Positions 8,099 through 63,227 of a DNA stretch of 64,000 bases are shown here, piece after piece (within the stretch, counting starts at the first letter, position 1; each line of letters begins with the position of its first letter). The translations under genes were made by a program, and so were the position numbers. The notes below the pieces were generated by a model. That model made no database searches and was not told where the DNA came from. It saw nothing but the letters and a program-made list of their open reading frames with translations. Origin of the DNA: Desulfovibrio sp. (GTDB lineage Bacteria > Desulfobacterota > Desulfovibrionia > Desulfovibrionales > Desulfovibrionaceae); assembly GCA_031272715.1 (NCBI GenBank), contig JAISTH010000071.1, positions 124,001-188,000 on the forward strand, read 5' to 3'.

Positions 8099-9280
8099 AT
8101 GGCACAGCAAATGCTCAAGCCGGACGCGGCGTTCGCCAGGGAGATCGCCCAGGCCGGAGGACAGTCGGTCAAGAAGTGTTATCAGTGCGCCACCTGCGCG
8201 GTGGCCTGCCCCCTCGCCCCGGCCAACGCCCCCTATCCCCGCAAGGAGATGATCTGGGCGTCCTGGGGATTGAAGGACAAGCTCCGCGGCGACGTGGACC
8301 TGTGGCTCTGCCACAACTGCGGCAACTGCTCGGATCTGTGCCCCCGGGGCGCCAGACCAGCGGAGATGATGGCTGCGGCCCGGAACATGGTGTACCGGGA
8401 CCTCACGGCCCCCTCGGTGGTGGGCAAGTGGATGAGCTCCCCTGCGGGGCTTCCGTACCTCTTCGCCATCCCGGCGATCCTGTGGCTTCTGGTCTGGTGG
8501 ATCGCGGCCGGCTTCAACGGCGGCAACTGGTTCCCCAGGGCCGCGGACGGCAGGATCGTCTTCGGCCAGATCTTCTACGGCGACTACACCATCGATCCCA
8601 TCTTCATGCTGACGTTCTTCGGGGCGGTGTTCGTCCTCTACCGGGGCGTGCGCAAGCTCTGGGAACTCTTCAGGCCCGAGGGCAAGCTCCTCGTGGTGGG
8701 CAGGACCAGGCACTGGATCCTGCACCTCGTGGACGTGCTCATCGAGGAAGTGGTCACCCACGGCAGGTTCGACGACTGCGAGACCGGCCCCGCGACCGGG
8801 AAGGCCACGCCGAGCCGCAAGTTCGGGCACATGTTCCTGGTGTGGAGCTTCATCCTGCTGGCCTTCGTCACGGCGATGGTGGCCTTGGGCCACTGGGGCG
8901 GCAAGGTGATCCCCCTCATCAAGATCGAGACGCCCATGTCCCTGCTCTTCCCCCTGAAGATACTGGCCAACGTCGGGGCGCTGCTGCTGCTGTGCGGCCT
9001 CGGCATCCTGACGGCGCGCCGCCTTGCCCTCAACCCCGACGACCAGGGCTCCGGCTACTACGACTGGTACCTGCTGGGGATCATCTGGCTCGTGGCCGTG
9101 ACGGGCATCGGCACCCAGTGCTTCCGCCTCGCGGACGCCATCAGGCCCGCTTTCATGACCTACTACCTGCATCTGGTCTTCGTCTGGATGCTCTTCGCCT
9201 ACCTGCCCTGGTCGAAGCTCGGGCATTTCGTCTACAGGACGGCCGCGCTCGTCTATGTGCGGATGTACGGAAGAAGCTGA
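8099..9280 (+). CDS. qmoC: Qmo complex membrane subunit QmoC
   Basis: A 393-residue fusion of an HdrC-like ferredoxin domain and an HdrE/NarI-like cytochrome b membrane domain. The first 90 residues hold two four-cysteine clusters (CYQCATCAVACPLAP and CHNCGNCSDLCPRGARP). The remainder has about six hydrophobic membrane segments, beginning near residue 120. Histidines such as those in RHWILHLVD and YYLHLVFVW could ligate heme b. This subunit takes electrons from menaquinol at the membrane. GGAGG lies just before the ATG, and the gene follows qmoB by 10 bases. Confidence 0.96.
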   Translation: MAQQMLKPDAAFAREIAQAGGQSVKKCYQCATCAVACPLAPANAPYPRKEMIWASWGLKDKLRGDVDLWLCHNCGNCSDLCPRGARPAEMMAAARNMVYRDLTAPSVVGKWMSSPAGLPYLFAIPAILWLLVWWIAAGFNGGNWFPRAADGRIVFGQIFYGDYTIDPIFMLTFFGAVFVLYRGVRKLWELFRPEGKLLVVGRTRHWILHLVDVLIEEVVTHGRFDDCETGPATGKATPSRKFGHMFLVWSFILLAFVTAMVALGHWGGKVIPLIKIETPMSLLFPLKILANVGALLLLCGLGILTARRLALNPDDQGSGYYDWYLLGIIWLVAVTGIGTQCFRLADAIRPAFMTYYLHLVFVWMLFAYLPWSKLGHFVYRTAALVYVRMYGRS

Positions 9281-9316
9281 CTTCATCACGGAATCGATCC
9301 CCAGGAGGATGTTCAT

Positions 9317-10036
9317 ATGGCTGACGCAGACCGCAAGGTTTTTCCCGTCGAGAAGGTGCTCGCCCTGGTGGCGGGCAAGGATGACGTAGACACCAAGGAC
9401 ATCGCCGGCTTCGTGGTGGGACGCTCCATCGCCTGCGAATGCGGCGCCAAGGTGGCGGGTCCCTATGCCGCCACGTGGCTCGCCCGGTGGTATCCCCAGT
9501 TCCTGGAACTGGAATGGAAGGCCGACCAGCCCTGGGACGCCTTCGTGGCCAAGGGCAAGAAGGTCCTCGGCGACAGCGTCTCCCTCACCGTCATGGACGG
9601 CCCCACCCGGACGATGGTGGACGCGGCGATGGACGCCATGGCCGAGAACCGGCACGGCATGGAGAGCCAGATGGCCGCGGCCAGGGCCCTCGAGGCCCGC
9701 GTCCAGGAACTGGAGCCCTACGTGGCCAAGGCCGAGGCGTTGCAGAAGAAGTGCGACGAACTGGAGGCCAAGATCAAGACCATGAACACCGACATGGGCG
9801 CCCTGCGCCGCCAGGCCGCCGATTTCCAGGGCAAGGTGGCCATCAGCCAGGACGACCTCATGCAGACCATCAAGGACGCCATCAAGGACGGCCTGAAGGG
9901 CATGGTGGTCGGCGGCGCGGCCGCAGGCGCGGCGGCCGGCGATGCGGCGGCCGAGTCCGCCGCCGAGGAGAGCTCCGTGCCGGACGACTTCGGTTTCGGC
10001 GCCTCCGGGGCGAACAACGACGGCTTCGGCTTCTGA
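9317..10036 (+). CDS. qmoD: Conserved protein of the qmo operon, QmoD-type
   Basis: A 239-residue soluble protein with no cofactor motif. It is encoded 36 bases after qmoC and before the operon terminator. The position and the general character match the fourth gene of the qmo operon in Desulfovibrio, called qmoD. Residues 1-110 look globular. Residues about 115-170 form an acidic/basic heptad-rich coiled coil (ALEARVQELEPYVAKAEAL). The C-terminus is an Ala/Gly stretch followed by an Asp/Phe/Gly-rich tail ending FGFGASGANNDGFGF. Its role is not established; assistance to Qmo-Apr interaction is a reasonable guess. AGGAGG precedes the ATG. Confidence 0.85.
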   Translation: MADADRKVFPVEKVLALVAGKDDVDTKDIAGFVVGRSIACECGAKVAGPYAATWLARWYPQFLELEWKADQPWDAFVAKGKKVLGDSVSLTVMDGPTRTMVDAAMDAMAENRHGMESQMAAARALEARVQELEPYVAKAEALQKKCDELEAKIKTMNTDMGALRRQAADFQGKVAISQDDLMQTIKDAIKDGLKGMVVGGAAAGAAAGDAAAESAAEESSVPDDFGFGASGANNDGFGF

Positions 10037-10059
10037 TTCCGTCAACCTCTTGATTCTCG

Positions 10060-10093
10060 AAAGGGCGCCCGGCATCGGGCGCCCTTTTTTTTC
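10060..10093 (+). terminator. Rho-independent terminator after qmoD
   Basis: A perfect stem AAGGGCGCCCG/CGGGCGCCCTT with a GCAT loop (10061-10085) runs directly into a tract of eight T residues. Confidence 0.93.
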
Positions 10094-10225
10094 TTGGGAA
10101 AAGCCGGCCGGAATCCTCCGGGGATTCCGGCCGTCCCCCAGTCCCCGCCGCAACATCCTCGCGCCAATCCGGCGATGATTCCCTTCCAGGGGGCCGTCTC
10201 CGCGACACTTCCCATCTAAAGGCAA
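10094..10225. other. Intergenic region after the qmo operon
   Basis: No gene is supported between the qmo terminator and the chemoreceptor at 10663. The small open frames at 10262-10666 lack ribosome binding sites and protein-like composition. A candidate promoter is listed separately. Confidence 0.5.
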
Positions 10226-10259
10226 ACGACTTGCCGAAAGTCGTCAAATGATGTAAATG
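10226..10259 (+). promoter_or_regulatory. Candidate promoter with inverted repeat upstream of the chemoreceptor
   Basis: TTGCCG (10231-10236) is followed after 17 bases by TAAATG (10254-10259). A perfect 7-bp inverted repeat ACGACTT/AAGTCGT (10226-10244) covers the -35 box and could be an operator. The resulting leader would be about 400 bases, so the assignment is tentative. Confidence 0.35.
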
Positions 10260-10662
10260 TCATGGCAGATGCAGGGTTAGCTCTCCGGGTCGTCGCCGAG
10301 GCCTCTGGCATGTCGTTTGCAACGGTCCGGTCGGCGAACGCCACTTTTGACGGCCGTGTTCCGGCAGACCGGTTCGCGAACCCCGCACTGCCTTCTGTCG
10401 GAGAGACGGCGGACGGCGGGACGGGGCGGGCTGGTCCGGAATGGCCGCGGGAGCCGCCTGAAATCGACCGGTTCCGACATGCGTCGAGGGGGAGGACGCA
10501 CGGCCAGTCCCGCGAACGGGACATGGTCTCGCCACGGCCCGCGAAGAGGGCATGGCAAGCGTGTGGTCCTTGTGCAGTCCAAGGCCGACACCAAGGGATG
10601 GGAAATCGCATGAGGCTTTACGACGGGCATCCCGTGCCACACATTACCGGGAGGACTCTCCC

Positions 10663-13693: not shown

Positions 13694-14450
13694 TCAGTCT
13701 TCACGCAGGAGTTGCATTTCACGCAGAAATCGAGACGGCGCTTTGGCAACCCCATCGTATGTATCGGCGAAGGTAAGAGTCAGCGTGTCCGAGGCAGTTG
13801 TGATTGCCGTGTAGCAAAGTCTCCGTTCTTCCTGGATCCCGTTATCATCACTGCCGGATTGCATGCTTTGGTATGTTGGGAAGATCTCCTCCGCCATGCC
13901 TGCGAGATATATGTGCTTATAATTTGATATGTTTTTTGCGTTTACAGTAAAGCACTGAACTGCATCTTGTAATTTTGGGATTGTAGACTTCTGTTTATCA
14001 AGCTCTTGCAAGAATACATTGAGCGTGACATTACCAACTCCGTGTGACGCTATGACTTTGTCTTGCAGCTCGCACCATATCGCTCTTTCATATGCATAAT
14101 CTGTATATATTTCATTTGACGGCGTGCGAGTTCGGCCTGCAGGTTGTCGAACCATTCTATAGCGTGTTTATTAAAAGCTAGGACATTTTAGTTGTCGGCG
14201 AGTTCGGATAGACAAATTTTGAGAAATGCGTGTGTGCCGTTATCAAGTTTATCAACGGCGAGCAATGATTCGAGCCAGAATCTCAAATAGCTGGCATGGT
14301 AAATTTGTGATTGTAAAATAATACTCTGTACATCAATTTCTATCTTCGTGAGGTCAGTAAATGCATTACATAAATTCCAAAGGTACTCAACGCCATTGCT
14401 CGAATTTGCTAGGCTCAACATTGAATATAAGCATTGGAATGGTGTGCTTA
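13694..14450 (-). pseudogene. Remnant of a UvrD-like helicase (GajB-type)
   Basis: Two out-of-frame pieces remain. The upstream piece (about 14450-14188) encodes a helical segment (LANSSNGVEYLWNLCNAF ... YLRFWLESLL) of the kind found in the linker of superfamily 1 helicases. The downstream piece (14155-13694) encodes a helicase C-terminus. It has HIYLAGMAEEIFPTYQ, then EERRLCYTAITTASD (motif VI region, degenerate at the usual AITRA) and a closing KAPSRFLREM. The Walker A half is missing, the frames differ and the motif V region is eroded, so the gene is dead. It lies directly behind a GajA-like fragment, as in the Gabija anti-phage pair. The DNA is AT-rich compared with its neighbours. Confidence 0.7.
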
Positions 14451-14795
14451 AGAATTCATTCGCTGCGCTACTCTCTTATCATCGTAAACGGTTACTTTGC
14501 CAAGAAAATCTCTATCAAGGTAATCACTCTCTCCACCATCTGTCGTAAAGTCGAGCGTAATAGATAATTCGCCTGTGTGATATGGTTGTTCCTTGGCGTC
14601 TGATAGGTGAAAGTTATACTCGTCTGGCATCGGGGCCGTATCTATACTAGGGAATGGCAGTGCTAGGCGAAGTGCATCAAGGATACTGGTCTTCCTTGTG
14701 TTATTCTCCCTGATCAAAACAGTCGTCTCACCAAGATCAAAGGAGATATCCTCAAAGCAGCGAAAATTCTTGATGTGTACGTTTTTGAGCATCAT
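14448..14795 (-). pseudogene. Remnant of an OLD-family nuclease N-terminus (GajA-type)
   Basis: A 115-residue fragment of an AAA ATPase/TOPRIM nuclease of the OLD family. The first residues (MLKNVHIKNFRCFEDISFDL) are the typical SMC/RecF-like N-terminus. The Walker A site, normally GENNxGKTS, reads RENNTRKTS; both key glycines are arginine, which should abolish nucleotide binding. The frame stops after about 115 residues and runs into helicase sequence, so a deletion removed the TOPRIM domain and the start of the helicase. AAAGGAG precedes ATG 14795, showing that the original start survived. Together with the preceding entry this is a decayed Gabija-like system. Confidence 0.7.
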
Positions 14796-14939
14796 ATAGA
14801 TTTCTCCTTTTGTCGTTTCGTGAATATCCAATATTCAGTTACTTCTGACTAATTCTGAGTTATGTAATATTATTAAATTCAAACTTTAAAATCAATGCAA
14901 GCCACAGGAGATTTCAAAGCAGAATTTGTTCAGTTTGGT

Positions 14940-36773: not shown

Positions 36774-37892
36774 TCATTCGGCGAGGACGCGGGTCAGACG
36801 TTCCGCGGTGGCGGCGTCCCCCATGGCGCCGTAGCGGGAGGCGAGCAGCCCGTAGGCGTCGCCCCTTCGGGGACAGTCGACGTCGACCAGGAGCCTCGAG
36901 ACGCAGGAACGGAACCTGTCGTCGTCTCCCAGCCAGAGAGCCGTCCGCGCCGCGACAAACAGCATCTCGGGGGAGTCGTGACAGCGCAGGGCCCTGCGGA
37001 GCAGATCCGCCGCCCCCCGTGCGTCTCCGGTCTCCTGGGCCTGGACGATCCCCTCGATGAAGGCCTGCTCGCCGAGGGCGTGGTCGGCCACATGGGCCTT
37101 CAGGGCCGCCGGCGAGTCCAGCCCGCACGCGCGCTTCGCGTCCCGCAGGTCCCGCAGCGCGAGGTCCTCCTGCACGGGTGCGGACGCCTGCCGCCTGAAA
37201 TCGGCGAAGGACTCCTCCAGGGGGCGATGTCCTCCGCCGCCGCGGCCGCGGTGGATCTTCGCCTTGAAGTCCTCGAAGGACTTGTAATAGTAGTGGTTGA
37301 GCTGCACGATGTTCGAAACGTGGTAGGACCAGTGCGTGGCGACCGGGAATCGATCTTCGTTGACACAGAAATAGCCGTTTCTGTATTTGAAGTTGTGCAC
37401 GGTGTTCACATCGGAGACGTGCTCTGGTTGCACCACGGCCTTGATGTGGGGGTCGAAGGAGATGACTTGCGTGTAGTTGTCTATGACGCCTCCAGCGGGT
37501 CTTTCCGTATGATGGGAGGATCCGAAGACACGCCAGTGGATGCCAAGGGCGCCGAAGGGGAGATATTCGTCAAGGAGATCGCGTATATCATCGTGTCTTT
37601 TTGGGACTATGAATTCGTCGACATCGATGAATGCCATCCATTTCGAATCGTTTCCGTACTTTTCGAGGCAACGTCTATAGGCGATGCGCTGTTTGTTGTA
37701 TATTTCCGGTTGGATTTCGACTGTAATCAAACCTTCGTTGACATACTCTGCAAGTTGTGTTGCGACAGGGATTCTGCTTTGATTGTCGTAGATGTATATG
37801 TGTTCGAAACCGATTGAAACATGATGCGTTACCCACTCTTCGAGCCACAGGTCTTCGTTTCTTGCCATTGTACAGATTGTCGCATAATACAT
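36774..37892 (-). CDS. Glycosyltransferase, family 92/family 2-like
   Basis: A 372-residue transferase. The start TICTMARNEDLWLEEWVTHH and GFEHIYIYDNQS are the GT92/GT2-like opening. WMAFIDVDEFIVPKRHDD gives the metal-binding DxD. HWRVFGSSHH and YHVSNIVQLNHYYYKSFEDF are family landmarks. Residues about 240-372 are GC-rich and helical, possibly TPR-like (ADLLRRALRCHDSPEMLFVA). The first two thirds are AT-richer than the last third, suggesting a recombined gene. Neighbouring nonulosonate genes suggest surface or flagellin glycosylation. Confidence 0.85.
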   Translation of the reverse strand: MYYATICTMARNEDLWLEEWVTHHVSIGFEHIYIYDNQSRIPVATQLAEYVNEGLITVEIQPEIYNKQRIAYRRCLEKYGNDSKWMAFIDVDEFIVPKRHDDIRDLLDEYLPFGALGIHWRVFGSSHHTERPAGGVIDNYTQVISFDPHIKAVVQPEHVSDVNTVHNFKYRNGYFCVNEDRFPVATHWSYHVSNIVQLNHYYYKSFEDFKAKIHRGRGGGGHRPLEESFADFRRQASAPVQEDLALRDLRDAKRACGLDSPAALKAHVADHALGEQAFIEGIVQAQETGDARGAADLLRRALRCHDSPEMLFVAARTALWLGDDDRFRSCVSRLLVDVDCPRRGDAYGLLASRYGAMGDAATAERLTRVLAE

Positions 37893-37949
37893 GTGTTTCG
37901 CCAGAGTGAAACGGGATTTCTTGTCCCAGTGATGGGGTTTTTAATTATT

Positions 37950-39556
37950 TCAACATCCAACAATATGGATGCAGTCTCCATTGTCAAGGGTGCGGTCCTC
38001 CCATGTTATACGCTCTTCCCATGTCTTGTCTTGTGACCTATCAAAAATGACAAGCCAACCTTCATGGGAACCGCATGTGTCCATGTAATTTTTTAGCTGA
38101 GTCATGCCTTCCTTGATTGCATCTGGGCGCTTGATCTTTATTTCAATGGGGTAATGCTGTCCAAGGTATGTCACGCACAAATCGACACGTTTGGCCCCAG
38201 TGAAAATTCACGGTTTATTTTGGCGTTACCGTTTGCGACACGTTGGAGGAAAGTCTGGAGAAATAATTGTGGAACCGCATGAGTATACACGTAACCAGCT
38301 GTTAATATATCTGAATTTTCTCTCCAATATTTTTGAAATTCTTTTAATAATTCAGTCATATGTATAACATTGTCATCCATCCACATGCTTATAAAAGACT
38401 TCGGAAGTCTTGATTGCTGAGAAAATGTAAGGTATCGGATTATCAAGTCAGAGTACAATCTATTTGCGGGAGTGACATCTTCATTGTCATTAATTTTCAA
38501 GAGGCCTATGTCGATACAATAATTGACATCATCGTCAACCTCATTGTCTTTTGAAAACTCACCGGTAAGCATGGGTTCAATGACGTTCTGGACGCGATTC
38601 TCCTTTAATTTATTGAGCAATGAGACTGTATGCATATCTTTGCGCTTGGATATAGCGTCAACAGCATCGTCAATATGGTCGGCGGAAATCGTGACAGAGT
38701 AGTCATAGTCGAGAACATCTTCAATTATTTGTTTTGCGATTGCATTTACCAGCCATGGTTGTCCGCTAGTCCAATAATATACTCTTTTTAAAGCATCACC
38801 GTCAAATTTTTGGCCTGTCGCGGAGGTATGCTGCGCATAGAGTTCAACGACATTATCAAAAGTGAAGTTGTTCAGCGTAAGTGACTTGTCGATAATGTTG
38901 AAAGGACTTGTGGTGCCAAGGGATTCTTCTTCTTCACGGATAAAAACTCGATAATCATAGACATTACGCATGCCGATAAGTGCTATCGAGCTGGGGAAGG
39001 GCACCCCTCTGCCTCTTCGTATATATCCATATCTGAGTTGACGTAAAAAGGATATCATTGCATCCCCTGAAAGAGAATCAGCTTCATCTAGAAAAAGGAT
39101 AAGTGGGCGGTCAAGAATTTTTGAGTATTCAGATAATGTGTCTCTTACGGCACTAAAGGGCCTAGTTGACGTTGGGGTGGAGACAATTTGTTCTGAAAAT
39201 TGAGGAATATTTTCGATAAGCCTAGCGCGAATTTCCTCAACGATTCAATATGTGCAGGCAGTCATATCGACGCCACTGACCACTTCTTCTAGCGAGCAGT
39301 ATATTGCGTAATGCTGGCCATTTCCGTTGATTTCATCAACGAGAGCTTCCAGCGTTGTCGTCTTGCCGGACTGCCTCGGCGCATGGATGACGAAATATTT
39401 TTCCGTCAAACATAACCGTTTGGCAATTGGCAGACGTGCAAGGGGGTCTATCATGTAGTGTTTTCCCGGTCTGCAGGGACCGGAAATGTTGAATTCGAGA
39501 GAATTTTTCTTGTATTCTGTAGTCATGGCGCTATCCATTGTAACTTTATTAAACAA
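37950..39556 (-). pseudogene. AAA-ATPase / PD-(D/E)XK nuclease-like protein, disrupted
   Basis: Three pieces of one gene of about 535 codons. The N-terminal piece (39556-39245) has Walker A HAPRQSGKTTTLEALV. The same frame continues after a single in-frame TGA (39247-39245) into a Walker B, LILFLDEADSLSGDAMIS (about 39110-39058). It then runs through a helical region to 38171. There the frame shifts by one base near TCACTGGGG and resumes in another frame with CVTYLGQHYPIEIKIKRPD, the ExK core of a PD-(D/E)XK nuclease domain, ending at 37950. ATPases of this kind are widespread accessory proteins of uncertain role. The nonsense codon plus frameshift make a functional protein unlikely. The DNA is AT-rich and lies on the 3' side of tRNA-Leu, as expected of an inserted island. 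Confidence 0.8.
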
Positions 39557-39744
39557 AATCGTGATTAGAACTTTATCATTGGTACATAATCGACAAGAAA
39601 TATCTCTGTTTATCTTTAACTAATTCAGTATAACGTTTTATGAATGAGGCTTTTTGTATTGCTGTCGCGATGGGGATACGGAAGCTACGGAATTGGTATT
39701 TGGGATAAGGATCTGGTTGGATACCAGAAGCCCCACATGGACAC

Positions 39745-53411: not shown

Positions 53412-54422
53412 ATGCGGACATGCTATGGTCGAGTGCTGGAGAACCTGGACGCCGGCAGGGAGTCCTTCGTCGTCGCCAGATGCGGCCCCGGAGGCGTCGT
53501 GCGGGAACTCGCCGAGGCGGGGGATCCCGACGATCCGCCGGAGGGGACGCGCATCGCCTTCACGCGGACGGAGGACGGGGCGATCCTGCGGGAACGGGTG
53601 ACGCCCCGGGAAAGGCTCGTCATCCTCGGGGCCGGGCACATCGCCGTCCCCCTCGCCCGGATAGGGGCGATGCTGCAATTCGACGTGACAGTCTTCGACG
53701 ACAGGCCGTCCTTCGCGAACGACGCCCGATTTCCCGACGCCACCGTCGTGTGCGATTTCTTCGACGTCCTGAAGGAGCGCCTGCCGATACGGGCCGCCGA
53801 CTACGTGGCCGTCGTGACCCGGGGCCATCGCCACGACCAGGAATGCCTGCGGCAGATACTGCAGGGCGTCGCCCCTCGCTACCTCGGCATGATCGGCTCG
53901 AAGCGGCGTTCGGGGTTCGTGATCGAGCAGCTCGCCGAGGAGGGCTTCCCGAAGGCCACGCTGGATCGGGTGCATGCGCCCATCGGCCTCGATATCGGAG
54001 CCCAGTCCCCCGAGGAGATCGCGCTGGCCATCCTGGCCCAGATGGTCCAGACGCGCCATGCCGACCGCCCCAGAACCATGCTGCGCCAGGAACCCTCGGT
54101 GGACCGGGAGGTGCTGGAATGGCTGGCCGCCCATGGGGACGTCCCGCTGGTCATCGCCACGGTCGTCTCCACCAAGGGGTCCACCCCCAGGATGGCCGGG
54201 GCCTGCATGTTGGTGCTGGAGGACGGACGCACGATAGGGAGCATCGGCGGCGGTTGCGCCGAAGGGGACGTGCTGCGGGAGGCGCGCCGTCTGCTGCGCG
54301 TGGGCGGCCATGCGGTGCAGACCATCGATCTGACGGGCTCTGCGGAGGACGAGGGCATGGTCTGCGGAGGGGAGATGACGGTGTTGGCGGAGGCGCACAA
54401 CGTTGCGGCCCCGGGCCGTTGA
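53412..54422 (+). CDS. XdhC/CoxI-family molybdoenzyme maturation protein
   Basis: A 336-residue member of the XdhC family, which binds, sulfurates or hands over molybdenum cofactor to xanthine dehydrogenase or aldehyde oxidoreductases. The Rossmann domain (RLVILGAGHIAVPLARIG near residues 72-89, YLGMIGSKRR near 160) comes first. The CoxI-type domain (VVSTKGSTPRMAGACMLV near 254, GSIGGGCAEGDVLREA near 276) comes second. That order is reversed relative to the common XdhC. The final segment contains CGGEMTVLAEA. No molybdoenzyme gene is adjacent, but a MocA-like gene lies 9 kb away. Confidence 0.9.
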   Translation: MRTCYGRVLENLDAGRESFVVARCGPGGVVRELAEAGDPDDPPEGTRIAFTRTEDGAILRERVTPRERLVILGAGHIAVPLARIGAMLQFDVTVFDDRPSFANDARFPDATVVCDFFDVLKERLPIRAADYVAVVTRGHRHDQECLRQILQGVAPRYLGMIGSKRRSGFVIEQLAEEGFPKATLDRVHAPIGLDIGAQSPEEIALAILAQMVQTRHADRPRTMLRQEPSVDREVLEWLAAHGDVPLVIATVVSTKGSTPRMAGACMLVLEDGRTIGSIGGGCAEGDVLREARRLLRVGGHAVQTIDLTGSAEDEGMVCGGEMTVLAEAHNVAAPGR

Positions 54423-54458
54423 AGCCGCGGGGCCGCATGATGCGTCGGCCGCATCGGG

Positions 54459-57400
54459 TCATTTTTTGGCGCTTTTCTTCCTGCTCCCGGATTTTTCCTT
54501 GACGGCGGGCTTGGCGACGGATTTCGCCTCGTCGTCAGCCTTCGTCCCGGCGGCGGACTTCGGCGTTTCGGCGCCGGAGGCCGTCTTCGGTTCCGCCTTT
54601 TTGGACTTTCCGCCCGGTCCCGCCTCATCCCCGGTCTTCCCGGCGGCCGTGGAGACATACTTGTCGCCGGCCTCGTCCATGCAGCGCTGCAGGCACGGCT
54701 CAAGGAACAGCCCCTTCTGCCCCCGGACGAGAACCCCCAGATGGACCAGCGTGTCCAGCAGCGTGAATATCCGCTCCCTGGGCTCCGTGGTGGGCTGCAC
54801 GAGCTCCCAGTACTCCTCGGCCGTCAGCGGATCGCCGTAGGACGTCACGGTCTCGATGATCTTCGCGACCTGAGGGTCCTCGGGGCAGGCGTATCCCGGC
54901 TCGGCCAGGTCGGGGAGGGGCCTCTTTTCCAGAACGGCCATGACGCGCCCGTCCCAGCCGCCGGTGTTGCGGAGCGTCTCCTCCACGGGCTGGAGCGGCA
55001 CCGTGTTGGTCTGGTTGTACCAACCCTCCAGTCCCGCCCGGTTCCACCGGTGGAGGAAGAGCACGTGGGTCGCGGCGCTGTTGAGAATGTCCGCGACGTC
55101 GGATCTGCCCGTCAGCGACAGGTAGGTGTCCGCATCCAGCAGATACGCGACCTTGACGACCTTCTGCTCGGTGTGGAGACGGCCGAGCCAGACGTGGGTC
55201 TCCCGAAGCGCCCCGACGATGTCGCCCGTCGATTCGCCGTCGAGCCACAGCAGCAATCCGCCCTTCTTGTGTTCCTGGTTGCGGATCCCGAGGCAGCTCG
55301 CCAGTTCCTGGACGGTCATGTCCCCTTTGCCGGAGAGGCCGACGATGCGCTCGACCTTGATCTCCATGTCGTTTTCGCCGGCCTTGCTCATGCCTATGTG
55401 CTTCAGCGTGTCCGGAACGCGCCCCAGTCCGAGCGCCTTGGATCCCACGATGAGGATGAGGCCGTTCTGCCTGGACTGGAGGGCGTTGTACTGGGTGACG
55501 ACCAGAGGGTCGGGGCGGCCGTCGGCCAGCACCGTGCGCATGTCCTCGGCGTGTCCCTGGGGGGTGTAGGGCCTGTCCCGGAACTGCCCCAACTTGTTCA
55601 GTATGTTCTCCTCGCCGCCCAGCAGGTGGATGATGTTCGGCGTGCGCAGCCGGTACATGCTCCCCACGGGGGAGAGCATCCCCAGCCCCACCATCTCTTC
55701 GAGAAGGCTCTCCACGGTGGTGAGTTCCGCGTCCTGGAACGCCTCGGGCCAGTTCTCCCGCAACTCGTCCAGCAGATCCATGACGCGTATGCCGGAGCCC
55801 GCCTGCGCGCCGCCTTCCGCAAGTTCCCACATGGCCAGCGTGTAGCCGATGACCGTGTAGCGCAGGTCGAGATCCAGGGTCCACTCGAAACGCTGCCGTA
55901 TGTTGGCCTGCAGCGTGGGCTTCCTGTAGACCTGGACGATGGTGTCCTTGTCGATGGCCACGGGCAGCGTGGCGGCCGTCTCCACCTTCGTGCCGACGGT
56001 CCGCACCAGTTCCTCGCAGAAGAGCTGGACGAGGCTCGGGTGGTAGTTCGTGTAGGCCAGGACCTTGTTCACCAGCGTCGCCTCGTTGAAATGGAGCCCG
56101 AGGGTCTCCATGGGGCACCGCACGAGATCCGACGCGGCCCCGGGCTGCAGCGGACCGATGCACAGAGGGATGCCGAAGTGGGGGAGAGGCGAGTTGGGGA
56201 TGCGGCTGTAGCGCTGCACCGAGTGCAGGCCGGTAAGCACGATCTTGAACCGGCGCTGGGTCTGGGTCATCAGGTCCCGGAAGACGGTCAGGTCCGGGAA
56301 TCCGGACTTCGCCCGCGGGCTCACGTTGTTCGCGTCATGCTCGATGATGTCGTCGCATTCGTCGAAGAGCATCAGGATCCGCCGTGAGGCGTCCCCGTCC
56401 AGATAGTCCTTGATGTTGTCGGAGAAGGTCTTGACGGTTGTCTGGCGCTTCACGATCCCCTCGGCGATCGCCAGGCGCAGGGCGGTTTCCACGAGGGAGG
56501 TGTCGGACTGCTGCATGCTGTGGAGCAGCACGCGGTTCCCCTGGCTCTCGTTGTCGAAGCGTTCCTTGACCTGGAGCAGCAGGGCGGACTTGCCCAGCTG
56601 GCGCCCGCCGTAGACGATGCACGGGCCGTAGGGATCCCACAGCGCCTCGATGTCCTGCTGGCGTCCGAAGAACATCTCCCGGGGCACGGCGCCCCCGGCG
56701 TTCGGCGTGTAGGGGTTGCTGGGAGACCCCGCCAGGGCGACGGCGAAGAATTTCTCCGTGCGCTCGGCATCGGGCTGGCGGCTGAGCCAGAAGAAGAGGT
56801 TGCTGTCCACGATCACGGGCAGGTAGCCTTGGCGGCGTCCCTGCTGCACCAGCTGCATGCGGTGGTCGTGGGTGAGGGAGCCGAACCACAGCACGGTGAT
56901 GGGCTGGTTCTTGCTGATGCCCTTGGTCTTGTCGGTGAAGAGGGTGTTCAGCAGGTTCCTGAGATATTCCGGGGAGGTGGGGCGCCCCAGGACGACGATA
57001 TGCCGCCGTCCCGCTCCGCTCCCCCACTGGGGCAGCGGGGCCTCGACGGTCATGTCGACGGTGAGGACCTGCCAGAGGGAGGGGCGCCCTTCGGCGTACA
57101 CCTCCCTGAGAGCGGCCTTCTGCTCCAGGGAGAAGCCCAGCCACTGCAGCAGTTCCGTGATCCGGGCGACGTTCACCCCATCGGAGAGATTGATGGGCTG
57201 CGGCCGGGACAGGAGGAAGGACTTCCAGGCCGACACGGCGCCGCCGGGAACGACGGTCTGGGACTCGGCGATGGGGCCCTGCCGCAACGCCTTGTAATAG
57301 TCGGCGGCCGCGGAGGACGTGGTGCGCATCGGGGTGAGGTGGAGGGTGGTGCCCTTGCGCAGGGAGTCGTAAGCCTGCGTGATGGCGTCGTGGGTGGCCC

Positions 57401-60251
57401 CGTACTCCCTGGACTCCAGCATGCGTCCGATCTGGGCCGCATTCTCGGGGGAGATTTTCGGCGCGAGTTCGTCCAGCCGCTTGCGCAGTTCCTCCTTCTT
57501 TCCGGTCTCCTCCTCTTCGAGCCTTCGCCGCACGGTCTTCAGTCCGGCGGTGGCCTGGGCCACGTCCATGAGGCGGTCGAGGTGGAGCCTGACGATGTCG
57601 TTGACGTCCCGGTTCAGGTCGCTCTCCCGGCTCTCCAGAATGACCCCTCGCAGGTAGGCGTCCCCGATTGCGTTGGTGATCGTCTCCTGCAGTTCGTTGA
57701 ACTGGTCCGACCACTTCCGCCGCTGGGATTCCAGACTCTCGCCGATCTCGGGCGTCTTGCGCAGGGGGAAGGCTCTGAGGAAGCTCTCCACCGGGGTGAA
57801 GTCCCCCTGCTTCATGTGGCCGATCAGCTGGTCGTCAAGGATGTTCCGGACCGAGGTGTCGGTGCGGTTCGCCGCGCTGCGGCCGATGAAATCCAGCATC
57901 TCCCCCTCGTCGACCCTGAAGCCGTCCGGGCCGAAGGTCGCGCGACCGAGGAACAGGGGCCACAGGGCGAGTTCCTCCAGCGGGTCTATGGGGGACTGGC
58001 TGGCCGTGCTCTTGCCGAAGCGGGACCGGAGTTCCTCGAGGCGATCCCGAAGGAAGCCGTTGAAGGGGGAGTCGGGGATGTCGTCGGGCCGGGCGGCCTC
58101 GGCGATTTCGTTCAACTGCCTGTGGGAGAAGTCGTCCGTGCGCTGTTTGGTGCCCTGGGTGCGAATCTGCTCCCATTCCCGCATGAGTTCCTGCGCCGCG
58201 GTCGCCTCCCGTATGATGGCGTCGAGGGCCTTGAAGTCGATGCGCTTGAAGGTGGCGGAGGGCTTGTTGATGCGCTTGTCCATCTCGTTCACGACATCGC
58301 TGACGAAGTCCTTGTTGTCCCAGGACTGCTGCAGCGCTTCGGGCAGCAGGGTGAAGTCGTCCTTCAGGCAGGCGTCCAGCACCTTGCCGATGTCGCCGCG
58401 AGTCGAGAACAGCTCCTTGAGGACCACCGTGGCCCGCTGGAAGCTGGTCTTCTTGTACTGGGCGGTCTCGAGGATCTCCCGCGTGCGGCGTTGCAGGTCC
58501 TCCAGGCGCTGCCGGCGCTGGGAGAGCATGCTCAGGTCCATGAACACGCCGTCGTCCAGAGGGACGCCCTTGGTGGCGAAGTCCCCCAGGCGGTCCAGAA
58601 GCTGGCCGCAGCGATAGGGGTCGAGGGTTTCATGGAGATTGTCGAGCAGAAACTTGTGGGTGGAGGAGGGCATCATGAGCACGGGGCGGACGAGGCTCGC
58701 GGCCAGCAGCATCGCGCCGCTCTCGTCCAGGGTGTCCACGGCCGAGTAGACTTCGTCGCTCTCGACGATCGCCTTGATCCGCATCTGGGACGCGTGGAAT
58801 CCGGGCTGCAGGCGGGTGCCCAGATAGAGGAGTTCGGCGAGCCACAGCGGGACGAAGGGTTCGGCGGCGCATTTCATGAGCCAGTAGAGTTCGCAGGTGC
58901 GGCGTTCGCTGAGCAGGTTGCGGGCGGATTTCTCGACCCGGGACATGGGCTTCGTGATGATGGGGGACGGGGTCGGCACGGGCGGTGCCTCCCTGACGTC
59001 GTCCTCCGGCGGGACATGGACGGGGGTGGGGGCCTGCTTCGTTTCCGGCGTCGGGGCGGCCGGTCTTGCGGTCTGGTCGGGAGCCTTTGTCGCGGCGGCG
59101 GGGGTGGGAGTCTCGACGGGTTTGACTGATGACTGTCTGACGACGACGCCCTCGCCCAGAACAAGCTTGCGGTCGCCGTTCTTGAGACTCCGGATCAGAT
59201 TGTTAGAGTAGTCATCGATCAGTTCCTCCTCGTCCTCGGTCAGCGTGCGCTCGCCTCTAAGGATCGGGAGGATTATCGTCGCGATGGGGGTCCTGCGTAT
59301 CGGTGGGTCGCCGGCACGTGATGCGTTGATCGTCTCGATAAGGGACTCGAGATCACGATCCTTAAAGGGAGGATCGACATTGTTGGTGAGGGCATCGCAA
59401 AGTGCGTCGAGATTCTCGAGTAAATCTGTCGGTCGTTTAGCAAGTTGCGAAAGGAGATTCTCTATGAATACATCACCTTCTTCTACGATGTAAGAGAGAT
59501 AGTCATACATATCGTAGGAAGTGAGTTCGTCTGAAACTTCGACTCCTGTGGTATCTTTGAGCGTTAGTAGTGGCTTCCGAAATGGTTTGATTTCAGATAT
59601 TATCGCCGTGTCAAACTGCTCGAAAACCTTAAGTCTATTGCGTGTTTGTACGATTAACTCTATGTCAGGGTTTAGCACAAAGTCTTTCAAGATCTCGTCA
59701 AGGACTACGCGAAACCTGTCAGGGTAGTCGGTCAACTGCCGACGCAATTCCTCCATCGGCGCGATACCATACATGATGGTATCGAAATTTTCTTTGTAGA
59801 CACTGTTGACTTTGTCGGAAGTCGTAGTCTCTTTGATGCAGTCGATGAGTTCAATGTCAGACGGGTAGAATTCATCGGGTATCTTAAGCATCTTCCCGAT
59901 GGAGTGAAAGAACAGAAGATTCTCTAGTGAGAATTTGATTTTTCGGAAATTTGGGCAATCATTGAGAAAGTATTTATACCATCTGTAAAACCAATCCTTG
60001 AATATCTGCAACCATAGGAGGTCGCTGTCAACATTATTTTTGAAAGACTTGCGTATTTCTTGAATAAATGTTTCAGGTGTCGCTTTGTAATAAAATTTTA
60101 ACTCTTGAGATAATTTATTTTTATCGAAACGACCTTTCCATATGGTATGGACGTTTTTGATAATGATATTATTGATCTTGTCCGTGTCGCATAGATGAAA
60201 AAAAACTTCATTGCTGATGGGGCTTGTTTCGAAATCCATTTCTTGGATCAT
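54459..60251 (-). CDS. Giant STAND/AAA-type NTPase with paralogous N-terminal domain (1930 residues)
   Basis: Not a recognised named family. Residues 1 to about 360 form an AT-rich-encoded helical domain homologous to the N-terminus of the upstream 618-residue protein. Shared landmarks are SNEVF/SDEVF at the start and IILPILRGERTLTEDEEELI near 335. A Pro/Ala/Thr linker follows (about 370-445), then a long helical region (about 450-1100). The NTPase module follows. It has a lead-in MFFGRQQDIEALWDP, Walker A VYGGRQLGKSALLLQV near residue 1215, Walker B ILMLFDECDDII near 1290, and a winged-helix-like part to about 1500. The rest (about 1500-1870) is unrecognised. The tail (about 1875-1930) is Lys/Ala-rich and basic, like a histone H1 tail. 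Start ATG 60251 has GGAG 7 bases upstream. A large sensor/effector ATPase is likely; substrate unknown. Confidence 0.8.
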   Translation of the reverse strand: MIQEMDFETSPISNEVFFHLCDTDKINNIIIKNVHTIWKGRFDKNKLSQELKFYYKATPETFIQEIRKSFKNNVDSDLLWLQIFKDWFYRWYKYFLNDCPNFRKIKFSLENLLFFHSIGKMLKIPDEFYPSDIELIDCIKETTTSDKVNSVYKENFDTIMYGIAPMEELRRQLTDYPDRFRVVLDEILKDFVLNPDIELIVQTRNRLKVFEQFDTAIISEIKPFRKPLLTLKDTTGVEVSDELTSYDMYDYLSYIVEEGDVFIENLLSQLAKRPTDLLENLDALCDALTNNVDPPFKDRDLESLIETINASRAGDPPIRRTPIATIILPILRGERTLTEDEEELIDDYSNNLIRSLKNGDRKLVLGEGVVVRQSSVKPVETPTPAAATKAPDQTARPAAPTPETKQAPTPVHVPPEDDVREAPPVPTPSPIITKPMSRVEKSARNLLSERRTCELYWLMKCAAEPFVPLWLAELLYLGTRLQPGFHASQMRIKAIVESDEVYSAVDTLDESGAMLLAASLVRPVLMMPSSTHKFLLDNLHETLDPYRCGQLLDRLGDFATKGVPLDDGVFMDLSMLSQRRQRLEDLQRRTREILETAQYKKTSFQRATVVLKELFSTRGDIGKVLDACLKDDFTLLPEALQQSWDNKDFVSDVVNEMDKRINKPSATFKRIDFKALDAIIREATAAQELMREWEQIRTQGTKQRTDDFSHRQLNEIAEAARPDDIPDSPFNGFLRDRLEELRSRFGKSTASQSPIDPLEELALWPLFLGRATFGPDGFRVDEGEMLDFIGRSAANRTDTSVRNILDDQLIGHMKQGDFTPVESFLRAFPLRKTPEIGESLESQRRKWSDQFNELQETITNAIGDAYLRGVILESRESDLNRDVNDIVRLHLDRLMDVAQATAGLKTVRRRLEEEETGKKEELRKRLDELAPKISPENAAQIGRMLESREYGATHDAITQAYDSLRKGTTLHLTPMRTTSSAAADYYKALRQGPIAESQTVVPGGAVSAWKSFLLSRPQPINLSDGVNVARITELLQWLGFSLEQKAALREVYAEGRPSLWQVLTVDMTVEAPLPQWGSGAGRRHIVVLGRPTSPEYLRNLLNTLFTDKTKGISKNQPITVLWFGSLTHDHRMQLVQQGRRQGYLPVIVDSNLFFWLSRQPDAERTEKFFAVALAGSPSNPYTPNAGGAVPREMFFGRQQDIEALWDPYGPCIVYGGRQLGKSALLLQVKERFDNESQGNRVLLHSMQQSDTSLVETALRLAIAEGIVKRQTTVKTFSDNIKDYLDGDASRRILMLFDECDDIIEHDANNVSPRAKSGFPDLTVFRDLMTQTQRRFKIVLTGLHSVQRYSRIPNSPLPHFGIPLCIGPLQPGAASDLVRCPMETLGLHFNEATLVNKVLAYTNYHPSLVQLFCEELVRTVGTKVETAATLPVAIDKDTIVQVYRKPTLQANIRQRFEWTLDLDLRYTVIGYTLAMWELAEGGAQAGSGIRVMDLLDELRENWPEAFQDAELTTVESLLEEMVGLGMLSPVGSMYRLRTPNIIHLLGGEENILNKLGQFRDRPYTPQGHAEDMRTVLADGRPDPLVVTQYNALQSRQNGLILIVGSKALGLGRVPDTLKHIGMSKAGENDMEIKVERIVGLSGKGDMTVQELASCLGIRNQEHKKGGLLLWLDGESTGDIVGALRETHVWLGRLHTEQKVVKVAYLLDADTYLSLTGRSDVADILNSAATHVLFLHRWNRAGLEGWYNQTNTVPLQPVEETLRNTGGWDGRVMAVLEKRPLPDLAEPGYACPEDPQVAKIIETVTSYGDPLTAEEYWELVQPTTEPRERIFTLLDTLVHLGVLVRGQKGLFLEPCLQRCMDEAGDKYVSTAAGKTGDEAGPGGKSKKAEPKTASGAETPKSAAGTKADDEAKSVAKPAVKEKSGSRKKSAKK

Positions 60252-60362
60252 GGTTGGTCTCCGTGATTGGTTGTATCTTTCAGTCGTGTCTGCCATGCCC
60301 AACGATGTCATGATGGGCGAGCGTCATTGGCGCGAGTGGTCGCATTTGGGGGGAGTCGTGCG

Positions 60363-62219
60363 TCAATCGGTGAAGAGCCGCTTGAGGTGGCTGCGGATGT
60401 CGGAGGAGATATCGTTGAGGCTTCTCTGCTCCTTCTTGGGGAGGGGAGTGGGATTGGCGCCGGCCTTGGGGGGCGTGCCGGCCTTGGGGTTCGCGCCGGT
60501 CTTGGGCGCGGTGTCGGCCTTGGGGCTCGCATCGGCCTTGGGGGGCTTGCCGGGCTTGGCCGCTTTGGCGGGTTTGGAGGGCTTGTCGGGCTTCGATGCC
60601 GAGGCGGTCTTGGAGTCCTGGCCGATTCCGGGGGCGACGGTTTTCGGCGTCTGGTCGCCCTTGGGCGCCTGTGCGGCCTTCGGCGCCGTGGCGGTCTTGG
60701 CGACCGTCTCGGCCTTCGGCCCTCCGCTGCCTTCCGGCGTCAGGGCCGGCTTCGGCGCCGTGGCGGTCTTGGCGACCGGTTCGACCTTCGGCGTCTGATC
60801 GGCCTTCGGCGTCTGACCGGCCTTCGGCGTCTGATCGGCCTTGGGTGCCGTGGCGGTCTTGGCGACCGTCTCGCCCTTCGGCGTCTGGTCGGTCTTGGCG
60901 GCCGGTTCTGCCTTCGCCGTCTGGTCGGCCTTGGCGGCCGGCGCGGTCTTGGGCGCCGTGGCGGCCTTCGCCCCTCCGCCGCCCTCCGGCGCCAGGGCCG
61001 GCTTCGGCGCAACGGTTCCCGAGGACTCGCCCTTCCCCGCAGCGACCTTGTCCACGCTCGTCCCCGGGGTCTTCTCTTTGGGCTTTCCCGGGGCCTTCGG
61101 GAGATGCTGGCCCTTTGGGGGATCCGCCAATCCATACGGCGCCGAGAGACTTCTCGCGGCATTCTTGAGACTGCCGAGGAAATTGGTCGAATAGTCCTCA
61201 AGCAGATTCTCATCTTCAGCTGTCAAAGTCTTCTCGCCTTGCAGAATGGGCAGGATGATTTTGACAAGGCATGTATCCGTTAGCCGAATGCGATCCTTCT
61301 CAGCTTTGTCAAGCTCAGCATTGACTGTGGCAAGATCGCCGGACCTGAGGGGTGGGACAATGTTGTTCGCGAAGATGGCCTTCAAAGACTTTACGTCCAG
61401 TGGAATGGCCTTGGGTCGCGAAACGAGAAGTTCCTGAAGGTTATTGTGAAAATTCTCAGCATCCTTATTGAGGGATACCAAGCACTTATCTATATCTTCT
61501 GATAACAAATTATTAGGGACGGGAATACCCGTTACTTCAGCGAAGCGCCTCAACGGCTCCAACGTTCTTACTATTTCGTCAATATATTTAGTTGGTTCTT
61601 CTTCGATGAATTTTTTCAGCCTCCCATGCAGGGTAACCAACTCGCTAACTGTTGCATCTCTATTATATGTTGAGAACGCATAATTGAAGTCAAACTTGAA
61701 TCTATGATAATAGGATTTGTATACTTCAGCCAAATCTCCTGCAGCTTCAATACCCAGCGCCATCAAGTAGTAGTTGTTCTTATATGTTTTTATTATCTTC
61801 TCAGGTGCAACTTTGTCATCTAGGCAATCGCAGACCTCTGCATCAGTTGGATAGTAATCCTCCGAGTAGTCGTTATTCTTTCCGATGATGTGGAAGAGCA
61901 AAACTTCTACCCATGAAGGATTCAAGTAGCTCGCATTTGCATCGTGGTCGTAGATTTGACTTCTTTTCTCTTCGTACCAGTCATCCATTAGCTGTTTTTG
62001 GAGGATCGTATTTTTCTTCAATTCGGTGCGCATGTTCGTACGGAAGATGCTTTTATTCTCCTTGAAGTAAAATCTGTGAAAATAGGTGAGTTCTCCCCTA
62101 TCATGTTCTAGTCTCCATACGGCATGGATGTCTGATATGATCGTGTCGATCTTGTTTGACAGACGCAGCGTCTTGAAGACTTCATCGCTGACCATGCATT
62201 CTTCAGATTCTAGGCTCAT
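60363..62219 (-). CDS. Partner protein sharing the N-terminal domain (618 residues)
   Basis: Residues 1 to about 358 are homologous to the N-terminus of the downstream giant NTPase. Both have SDEVF-type starts, DDWYEEKRSQIYDHD near the middle, and IILPILQGEKTLTAEDENLL near 325, then YSTNFLGSLKN. After that comes a disordered Lys/Ala/Pro/Thr linker of about 235 residues with repeated AKTATAPK and QTPKAD units. A short basic tail (EQRSLNDISSDIRSHLKRLF) closes the protein. There is no enzyme motif, membrane span or signal. It is the first gene of a two-gene operon, 111 bases before the NTPase. GAGG lies 9 bases before the ATG. It is likely a structural or adaptor partner; no known family is recognised. 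Confidence 0.75.
   Translation of the reverse strand: MSLESEECMVSDEVFKTLRLSNKIDTIISDIHAVWRLEHDRGELTYFHRFYFKENKSIFRTNMRTELKKNTILQKQLMDDWYEEKRSQIYDHDANASYLNPSWVEVLLFHIIGKNNDYSEDYYPTDAEVCDCLDDKVAPEKIIKTYKNNYYLMALGIEAAGDLAEVYKSYYHRFKFDFNYAFSTYNRDATVSELVTLHGRLKKFIEEEPTKYIDEIVRTLEPLRRFAEVTGIPVPNNLLSEDIDKCLVSLNKDAENFHNNLQELLVSRPKAIPLDVKSLKAIFANNIVPPLRSGDLATVNAELDKAEKDRIRLTDTCLVKIILPILQGEKTLTAEDENLLEDYSTNFLGSLKNAARSLSAPYGLADPPKGQHLPKAPGKPKEKTPGTSVDKVAAGKGESSGTVAPKPALAPEGGGGAKAATAPKTAPAAKADQTAKAEPAAKTDQTPKGETVAKTATAPKADQTPKAGQTPKADQTPKVEPVAKTATAPKPALTPEGSGGPKAETVAKTATAPKAAQAPKGDQTPKTVAPGIGQDSKTASASKPDKPSKPAKAAKPGKPPKADASPKADTAPKTGANPKAGTPPKAGANPTPLPKKEQRSLNDISSDIRSHLKRLFTD
60640..60965. repeat. Short tandem coding repeats in the linker of the 618-residue protein
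   Basis: Repeated units such as GCCGTGGCGGTCTTGGCGAC (near 60684, 60758 and 60846) and GGCCTTCGGCGTCTG (several near 60787-60840) code the Lys/Ala/Pro/Thr linker. Confidence 0.75.
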
Positions 62220-62654
62220 AGTTAGTTTCCTCGTGTGTTCAAGAGAATGAATATGTTAAGTTTGAAAGGTTAATGGTGATTCAATGGATATTCTGGAGCG
62301 TCCCCGCTACTGGAAAACTGGATTGTTCCGTCAGAAGCGCATCTGTCCGTCTTCCTCAACAATCGCCAACCATTCCCAACGTTCTGTTGTTCAAAGGCCT
62401 TCCTTTGCCGGACCGGAAGAGGGCATCCTCCCCGGGGCGCGGCCTGCGACCCGTCACGATGGCACGACCCGCCACGATGGCAGCGACGAAGGCCCGCTTG
62501 GGGAGCGCACATTCGCCCATGGTCCGTCCATGGATCCCGTTGTGGCTCGCGCGAAAAAGTTCGTATACTCCCGTTTCGTCTTGTGCGCAAGCGCAAAAAC
62601 GTCATGGTCTCGGAAGACGGCCTCGCCCCCGATAGGGAACCCCTCGGCGGCCGT
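62220..62654. other. Intergenic region upstream of the two-gene NTPase locus
   Basis: About 435 bases. The first 60 next to the 618-residue gene are AT-rich and probably hold its promoter, but no clean -35/-10 pair was found. Open frames in the remainder lack ribosome binding sites and family resemblance. Confidence 0.5.
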
Positions 62655-63227
62655 TCACAGGCCCTCCAGCATCGCCATGCATCCGTACGGGAACGGGATG
62701 CGCATGACGTCCTCCAGCGGCAAGGCAAGATGCCATGCCACCAGCGTCCTGTGCGTTCCTGCGTGCCCCACCAGAAGAAGCGCCCCTTCGGGATGCCGCA
62801 GCCGCAACCGTTCGACCGCGGCCAGCGTCCTGCGCTGCACCTCCAGGAAACTCTCCCCCCCTTCCGGGACGAAGCCCGCCATGTCGAGTCCGCGGGCGGC
62901 GTAGGCCCCGGGAAATCGATCCTCCACCTCCTGGGGCGTCAAGCCCTCCCAGGCGCCCAGGGATATCTCGTCAAGCCCCGGATCCTCCAGCAGAGGAACG
63001 CCATCGAGAGCCTCGGCGAGGATGCCGGCGCCGTGCCGCGCGCGCCCGAGACTTGAGGAGCAGATGGCGGACACGGACCGGCTTCCGGGATTCGAGGCCA
63101 GTTCCGCTGCGAGGGAACGCATCTGCAGGACGCCCTTCCGGGAGAGGGGGATGTCCTGGGCGCCGATGAAGCGGCGTTGGGGATTCGGAGGGAGGGCGCC
63201 GTGGCGCGCCAGCCACAGTGCCTTCAA
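62655..63227 (-). CDS. Histidine phosphatase family protein
   Basis: A 190-residue member of the phosphoglycerate mutase/acid phosphatase superfamily. The phospho-accepting His is in LWLARHGALPPNPQRRFIG near residue 9, CSSSLGRARHGAGILAEAL follows, then the acid EISLGAWEGL near 90 and the second His in LLLVGHAGTHRTLV near 153. The PNPQRRFIGAQDIPLSRKG start resembles alpha-ribazole phosphatases (CobC), but the substrate is undetermined. Its ATG overlaps the stop of the upstream MocA-HD gene by four bases (ATGA). Confidence 0.9.
   Translation of the reverse strand: MKALWLARHGALPPNPQRRFIGAQDIPLSRKGVLQMRSLAAELASNPGSRSVSAICSSSLGRARHGAGILAEALDGVPLLEDPGLDEISLGAWEGLTPQEVEDRFPGAYAARGLDMAGFVPEGGESFLEVQRRTLAAVERLRLRHPEGALLLVGHAGTHRTLVAWHLALPLEDVMRIPFPYGCMAMLEGL

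Follow-up and report, generated by a model that had tools for sequence, protein, structure and literature searches.

What does a giant nucleoside triphosphatase (NTPase) do beside a smaller protein that begins with the same domain? This arrangement occurs in a 64,000-nucleotide stretch of Desulfovibrio sp. DNA (contig JAISTH010000071.1; hereafter the window), where two intact open reading frames (ORFs) lie in tandem on the minus strand: P0002 (618 residues), followed after 111 bases by P0001 (1930 residues, or 1950 from an alternative upstream ATG at 60311). The account that we favour, for which we judge the case about evenly balanced, is that P0001 is the NTPase switch of a defence family, which would have lost its HEPN effector and whose fast-evolving N-terminal domain would have been exchanged and duplicated.

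The N-terminal domain of P0001 and P0002

A first-pass annotation, made from the sequence alone, had proposed that the two proteins share an N-terminal domain, and alignment bears this out. The domain (N-domain) spans about 360 residues, over which BLASTP finds 106/367 identical positions (29%; 165 bits, E=2e-46 as a single-comparison value), and phmmer searches with each N-terminus retrieve the other window protein at 152 and 145 bits. The motifs quoted at that stage, S(N/D)EVF, IILPILxGExTLT and YSxNxxxSLKN, are all present. Identity between the pair in the window is 30%, compared with 12–19% to the remaining known copies, and the two are each other's closest known relatives.

The N-domain is confined to a narrow group of organisms. 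A profile of the domain (A1) has matches in just five of the 297 order genomes searched, which belong to a single genus, with two copies in the window's own genome and one each, on the giant, in the four others. The same profile also finds it on a giant in G705, a genome outside the 297-genome draw of which a 12.6-kilobase contig alone was read. A stand-alone N-domain protein occurs only in the window's genome among the 297 searched. The first-pass annotation had looked to other genomes for co-occurrence of the two genes; at the sensitivity used, the pair is unseen elsewhere in these 297. No third copy was found in the window's own genome (80% complete, 101 contigs), and none in viral contigs.

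Within the genus, the N-domain is the least conserved part of the giant. Against five same-genus relatives, P0001 is 15–20% identical in the N-domain, 42–47% in a conserved core and 24–30% in the C-terminal part. The N-termini of nine giants outside the genus clade, compared with the N-domain as single sequences by hhalign, reach a probability of at most 0.5%, and a relation between them was rejected. A two-row AlphaFold2 model of the P0002 copy is all-helical at low confidence (mean predicted local distance difference test score (pLDDT) 63, predicted template modelling score 0.44); compared with the PDB, it gives nothing at E<=0.001. The best profile match among PDB sequences, carbonic anhydrase (E=0.035), was judged not credible.

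Both genes change base composition abruptly. The GC content at third codon positions (GC3) of P0001 is 0.49 over the first ~318 codons and 0.90 after them (break at codons 312–332, log-likelihood gain 126.7), and that of P0002 is 0.52 over the first ~368 codons and 0.88 thereafter (break at 357–383, gain 49.1). These are the two largest steps among 39 window ORFs of at least 250 codons that pass a codon-position filter, several of which are over-extended or overlapping frames. The break in P0001 coincides with the conserved IILPILxGE motif. In all four relatives examined for such a step, the best one lies elsewhere (G087, codon 1689, gain 5.4; G649, codon 1028, gain 2.3; for G638 and G659 see below). 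Most simply, both window N-domains would have come from AT-rich DNA, probably together.

Past the N-domain, P0002 has no NTPase match and no recognisable effector domain. Its last 252 residues (K 16%, P 16%, A 19%; net charge +22) match no family in Pfam, NCBIfam or PADLOC. P0002 was also considered as a truncated giant and rejected: its last 24 residues fit the start of the giant's middle region no better than other stretches, with the best score at P0001 residue 874.

The giant NTPase family, its HEPN-motif partner and its gene neighbours

P0001 carries the Walker A sequence GGRQLGKS and the Walker B sequence ILMLFDECDD; as first annotated, the P-loop NTPase is found on the longer protein alone. 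No Pfam or NCBIfam family is reached above cut-off, the AAA matches being sub-threshold (best ATPase_2, E=0.0015, 18.8 bits vs a cut-off of 33.2), while four relatives (P0004, P0006, P0008 and P0010) lie above the AAA_22 cut-off. The core of P0001 comprises an LPxxGSxxxGxYRI-like segment, the P-loop NTPase and a conserved segment after the P-loop, and is 28–46% identical to the eight other rows of the core alignment (A3). It aligns across the window's phylum, Pseudomonadota, Rhodothermota, Cyanobacteriota and Actinomycetota. This alignment firmly places P0001 in an NTPase family that has no Pfam, NCBIfam or PADLOC name. In a midpoint-rooted core tree, the window and six same-genus giants group at 100/100, with the six forming an inner group at 100/99. 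A model of P0001 residues 1020–1860 has a mean pLDDT of 42, too low to judge a winged helix or STAND fold after the P-loop, and a KSB1 match (L006) of 48 residues at the P-loop was taken as a general ATPase and left unused.

The family resembles the STAND (signal transduction ATPases with numerous domains) and ORC-CDC6-like NTPases of conflict systems in its P-loop, its Walker B pattern DE(C/A/S/T)D, its large multidomain proteins with a variable N-terminus, and the weak AAA_22, ATPase_2, NB-ARC and nSTAND matches of its members. It differs from them in that P0001 reaches no curated family, no known repeat sensor was found, and the conserved core of 570 residues lies outside any named family.

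Its distribution is patchy, in keeping with the earlier description of an accessory locus. The core profile finds the giant in 9/79 genomes of the genus and 6/395 of a phylum draw, the window's own genome being counted in both, and a search of 199 family genomes with P0001 gave one other positive genome, G087. With the giant as tblastn query, 25 of 72,556 plasmid records match, ten of which were opened, and one of 53 candidate stretches taken from viral contigs (L039) encodes a relative. By reading alone, the N-terminus of a Brasilonema plasmid giant (L012:5651–12520) resembles a sigma factor of the RpoD type joined to the NTPase. The G087 copy (L007), also by reading, is a giant–HEPN pair among relaxase-, integrase-, antirepressor- and primase-like genes, that is, in a mobilisable element.

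In relatives, the next gene downstream of the giant, often overlapping it, encodes a protein of 332–529 residues (11 aligned cases). All 11 share no more than five invariant columns. Two of these, R389 and H394, belong to an Rx4H motif that mostly reads RNxxAH; N390 is conserved in at least 90%. One partner, P0005, has HEPN_Swt1 as its best Pfam match (E=5.8e-4, 20.6 bits vs a cut-off of 27.5), and we consider it likely, at scores below curated cut-offs, that the partners are HEPN proteins. The invariant motif near the C-terminus and the P0005 match recall the Swt1-like HEPN RNases, as far as the accessible part of PMC3710099 describes them; unlike these, the partners fall below the Pfam cut-off and have ~270 residues without a recognised fold ahead of the motif, and none was found in the window's genome. 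A five-row partner profile run against PDB sequences listed CRISPR-associated proteins at E 0.75–1.2, which were not seen again with 11 rows.

We scanned 24 giant loci (the window, L007, L010–L019, L032–L039 and L056–L059) in six frames with a ten-row partner profile. Three (L035, L057 and L059) end too soon downstream, which leaves 21 readable loci, and the partner family lies downstream of the giant in 14 of them. Of these 14, ten contribute rows to the profile and four (L019, L038, L056 and L058) do not; an earlier five-row profile retrieved L032, L033, L034, L036 and L038, none being its own rows. The L038 partner ends before the motif at a contig end, and those of L019 and L058 lie outside the 11-protein alignment. 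As a general rule, the two-component system first read from the window is not supported: the commoner partner is the downstream HEPN-motif protein, in which the N-domain profile matches nothing.

Closer to the window, a HEPN partner accompanies each of the five other giants of the genus on which the N-domain is known, and also five of the six that group with P0001 in the core tree, the locus of the sixth (G685) being cut. No HEPN partner was found in the window's own genome with a single partner or the five-row profile as query, and none at the window locus. Because same-genus sister giants and distant lineages alike have partners, loss of the HEPN gene in the window lineage is the simplest account.

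Three relatives connect the family to anti-phage systems (E values in brackets). In L037 (99–14938), a DISARM-like locus in which no HEPN partner was found, the giant is followed by DrmE-like (PF24957, 2.9e-18; HEC-07, 1.4e-16), DrmA (4.5e-103) and DrmB (7.9e-25) proteins. In L039, a DruE3-type helicase (E=0) split over two genes precedes the giant and then the HEPN partner; this contig comes from the viral collection and also encodes what by reading resembles a phage tail protein. In L014 (2906–12676), PprDinG (5e-166) is followed by a pPIWI-RE module (PF13032, 6.3e-31; PF13111; PF18157) fused to the giant, and the partner after it has an AAA_33 P-loop domain at its C-terminus. The giant NTPase of L014 and L019 (3026–12328) lies within proteins of 3100–3260 residues annotated as RNaseH domain-containing, in L019 by annotation alone; in L012 a PLD-SNF2 helicase follows the giant. 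These loci were picked for scanning after being read and are examples, not a rate. The accessible part of the pPIWI-RE paper PMC3702460 contains 0 occurrences of HEPN, and we recognised no description of the giant–HEPN pairing in a literature search outside which most subscription journals lay, so that this is weak evidence of novelty.

Relatives of P0001 adjoin (L037, L039) or are fused to (L014) signature proteins of DISARM, Druantia type III and pPIWI-RE, and a defence role of the giant family is likely. The early suggestion of a possible defence system survives for the family through these relatives. P0001, P0002 and P0003, an 866-residue product encoded nearby, match no PADLOC model of these three systems (the remaining window genes were not scanned with all these models). 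This is guilt by gene neighbourhood; it concerns the family and does not reach as far as the window's own copy. As first annotated, no known defence family is recognised: P0001–P0003 match 0 PADLOC families at E<=1. The PADLOC library presumably includes models of Avs; in matching 0 PADLOC families of any kind, P0001 and P0002 are unlike Avs-type defence proteins, which resemble NLRs (nucleotide-binding, leucine-rich repeat receptors).

Candidate histories of the pair

Around what was computed (the shared domain, the family, a partner present in relatives and not found here, the neighbouring genes, the empty site and the composition step), the favoured account would add sensing, RNase activity, docking, a direction of loss, import of the N-domain and a defence function. 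In the ancestral system, the fast-diversifying N-domain would sense an invader product or control assembly, and the P-loop NTPase would turn its signal into a conformational change. This change would free a HEPN-type ribonuclease, encoded by the overlapping or adjacent downstream gene, to cut RNA and bring the infected cell to a halt. Where DISARM, Druantia III or pPIWI-RE machinery has taken up the switch, as may have happened in some lineages, sensing would fall to that machinery. The window lineage would have lost its HEPN gene, exchanged the N-domain for one of AT-rich origin, and kept another copy of that domain as the separate P0002 with its basic low-complexity tail. Docking of P0002 on P0001 through the shared domain is plausible, and most likely P0002 would act on P0001 this way, as a co-receptor, a nucleic-acid-binding arm or a dominant-negative regulator.

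Several results weigh against this account. The tblastn search with the giant finds 0 of 50,697 phage records. None of the partners reaches a Pfam HEPN cut-off; HEPN_Swt1 appears at E<=1 in 5 of 11 and not in the other six, the L032 partner matches no Pfam family at 0.05, and partner profiles have no significant match to solved HEPN structures. The partner was not found in 7/21 readable loci (the window, L012, L013, L015, L017, L018 and L037), so the NTPase may work without a HEPN partner or with others. On the core tree, the HEPN label is no more clustered than when shuffled (271/500 as low, with the three cut loci counted as lacking it). At 80% completeness, the window genome may hold a HEPN gene elsewhere. 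Finally, G638 and G659, which are near-copies, show milder composition steps (codon 752, gain 17.5, and codon 705, gain 33.4), with a front GC3 of 0.72 vs 0.83–0.87 later; because such gradients occur, an AT-rich front need not mean import.

A possible but doubtful alternative is that P0001 and P0002 form a complete two-component system, joined homotypically by the shared domain, with P0002 as the partner or effector arm that replaces HEPN. The window N-domains are closest known relatives (30%) with the same unusual composition, and the insert consists of precisely their two genes. The pattern has a precedent in the effector-associated domains (EADs) of VMAP, iSTAND and GAP1 systems, which, in the accessible part of PMC7159879, are small, mostly helical, and present on a core protein and its neighbour, with neighbouring copies closest. 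The window domain likewise sits on a core protein and a neighbour, in mutually closest copies, and is helical as predicted at low confidence. At ~360 residues, however, it is far larger than the small EADs described there; its second copy carries no recognisable effector domain, no vWA, MoxR or GAP1 component was recognised, and the pair occurs in no other searched genome.

A wider form of the favoured switch account, which we think rather unlikely, would make the NTPase and HEPN protein a widespread, interchangeable suicide switch adopted by DISARM, Druantia III and pPIWI-RE, its N-terminal sensor swapped as an AT-rich cassette. The window giant and its free copy would have received matched new sensors together, and the free N-domain protein would now stand in for the nuclease partner that was lost.

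The locus is unlikely to be a decommissioned remnant that outlived its HEPN gene, with P0001 and P0002, the latter a partial duplicate, now functionless. No HEPN partner was found, P0002 lacks everything beyond the N-domain, and GajA/GajB-like fragments of another defence system lie in the same window (13694–14831). Yet both reading frames stay open for their full 1930 and 618 codons, and both Walker motifs are kept; the body of P0001 has a GC3 of 0.90; and the end of the P0002 tail is unlike the start of the giant's middle region.

By analogy with the silent cassettes of phase-variable systems, P0002 might be a stored alternative sensor, an adjacent N-domain cassette that recombines with the 5' end of P0001. 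The position of the P0001 composition break at the conserved IILPILxGE (codons 312–332), the similar AT-richness of both N-domains and the tandem, same-strand layout would suit such exchange, but the copies are only 30% identical, no long direct DNA repeat links them and there is no second genome for comparison, which makes it improbable. A giant that is no defence protein, and instead serves mobile elements or plasmids as a general NTPase, would explain the 25 matching plasmid records and the G087 copy that reads as lying among relaxase- and primase-like genes, but this seems equally remote: at three different loci the giant is linked or fused to proteins of DISARM, Druantia or pPIWI-RE, and defence genes are usually found on mobile elements.

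These results tie a giant NTPase family, unnamed in the searched copies of Pfam, NCBIfam and PADLOC, to a HEPN-motif partner that recurs and to three separate anti-phage systems, several of which may owe their cell-suicide arm to this one family. The window adds a natural variant: no effector gene was found, the sensor-like domain is present as a free copy, and base composition breaks sharply there. Set against same-genus giant–HEPN pairs, the window pair would make it testable which part of a STAND-like system senses and which kills.

The insert and other features of the window

Coordinates of the features are collected in Table 1. In a relative (G646, stretch L060), the homologues of the flanking genes are adjacent: xdhC at 9266–10273(+), the mutase-like gene at 10852–10295(-) and an NTP-transferase/HD-like gene, named by reading without a profile run, at 11598–10867(-). 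Because these homologues neighbour each other in G646, P0002 and P0001 are taken to fill the interval as an insert. Matches to xdhC occur in 6 of 41 genus genomes, the window's own included. Stretches were fetched around the xdhC relatives of the five other genomes; of four, L060 alone shows all three flank genes, L061 and L063 having xdhC in a different setting and L062 ending soon after it. The ends of P0001 and xdhC are 36 bases apart, and a search for 10-bp repeats shared by the junction regions, direct or inverted, found none. An in-frame TGA flagged in xdhC relatives proved to be the normal stop in L060 and L061, the two that were read.

Table 1. Features of the P0002–P0001 locus in window coordinates
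Feature	Position	Strand	Remarks
P0001 giant NTPase	54459..60251	-	1930 residues
N-domain copy in P0001	59139..60251	-	residues 1-371; AT-rich to codon ~318, where IILPILxGE starts
P/A/T-rich linker of P0001	58932..59138	-	residues about 372-440
Middle region of P0001	57105..58931	-	24-26% identity to five same-genus relatives
Conserved core of P0001	55392..57104	-	residues 1050-1620; defines the family (alignment A3)
Walker A GGRQLGKS	56586..56609	-	G166, R168, G171, K172 invariant in A3 (9 rows)
Walker B ILMLFDECDD	56349..56378	-	D248, E249, D251 invariant in A3 (9 rows)
P0002	60363..62219	-	N-domain and low-complexity basic K/P/A/T tail
N-domain copy in P0002	61125..62219	-	residues 1-365; GC 0.44, GC3 about 0.52
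P0002 tail	60363..61124	-	GC 0.71; 18-nucleotide repeat units
Accessory insert	54423..62654	.	8.2 kilobases; P0002 and P0001 its only recognised genes
xdhC, left flank of insert	53412-54422	+	named by reading, no profile run
Phosphoglycerate-mutase-like gene, right flank of insert	62655-63227	-	named by reading, no profile run

P0003 (50547–53147, minus strand) has a non-repetitive start of ~350 residues, a long Q/P/A repeat tail and no family match. It was rejected as a third component: it lies beyond xdhC, and its first 350 residues are found in its own genome alone of the 41 genus genomes. An AT-rich stretch at 37000–39700, the second in the window, falls to a GC of about 0.41 and holds a 295-residue ORF without a Pfam or PADLOC match at E<=0.01. 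In another AT-rich stretch, two short minus-strand ORFs (13694–14155 and 14448–14831) match GajB in its end part (3e-44) and GajA in its beginning (3e-19); they resemble the remains of a Gabija-like defence system that has decayed.

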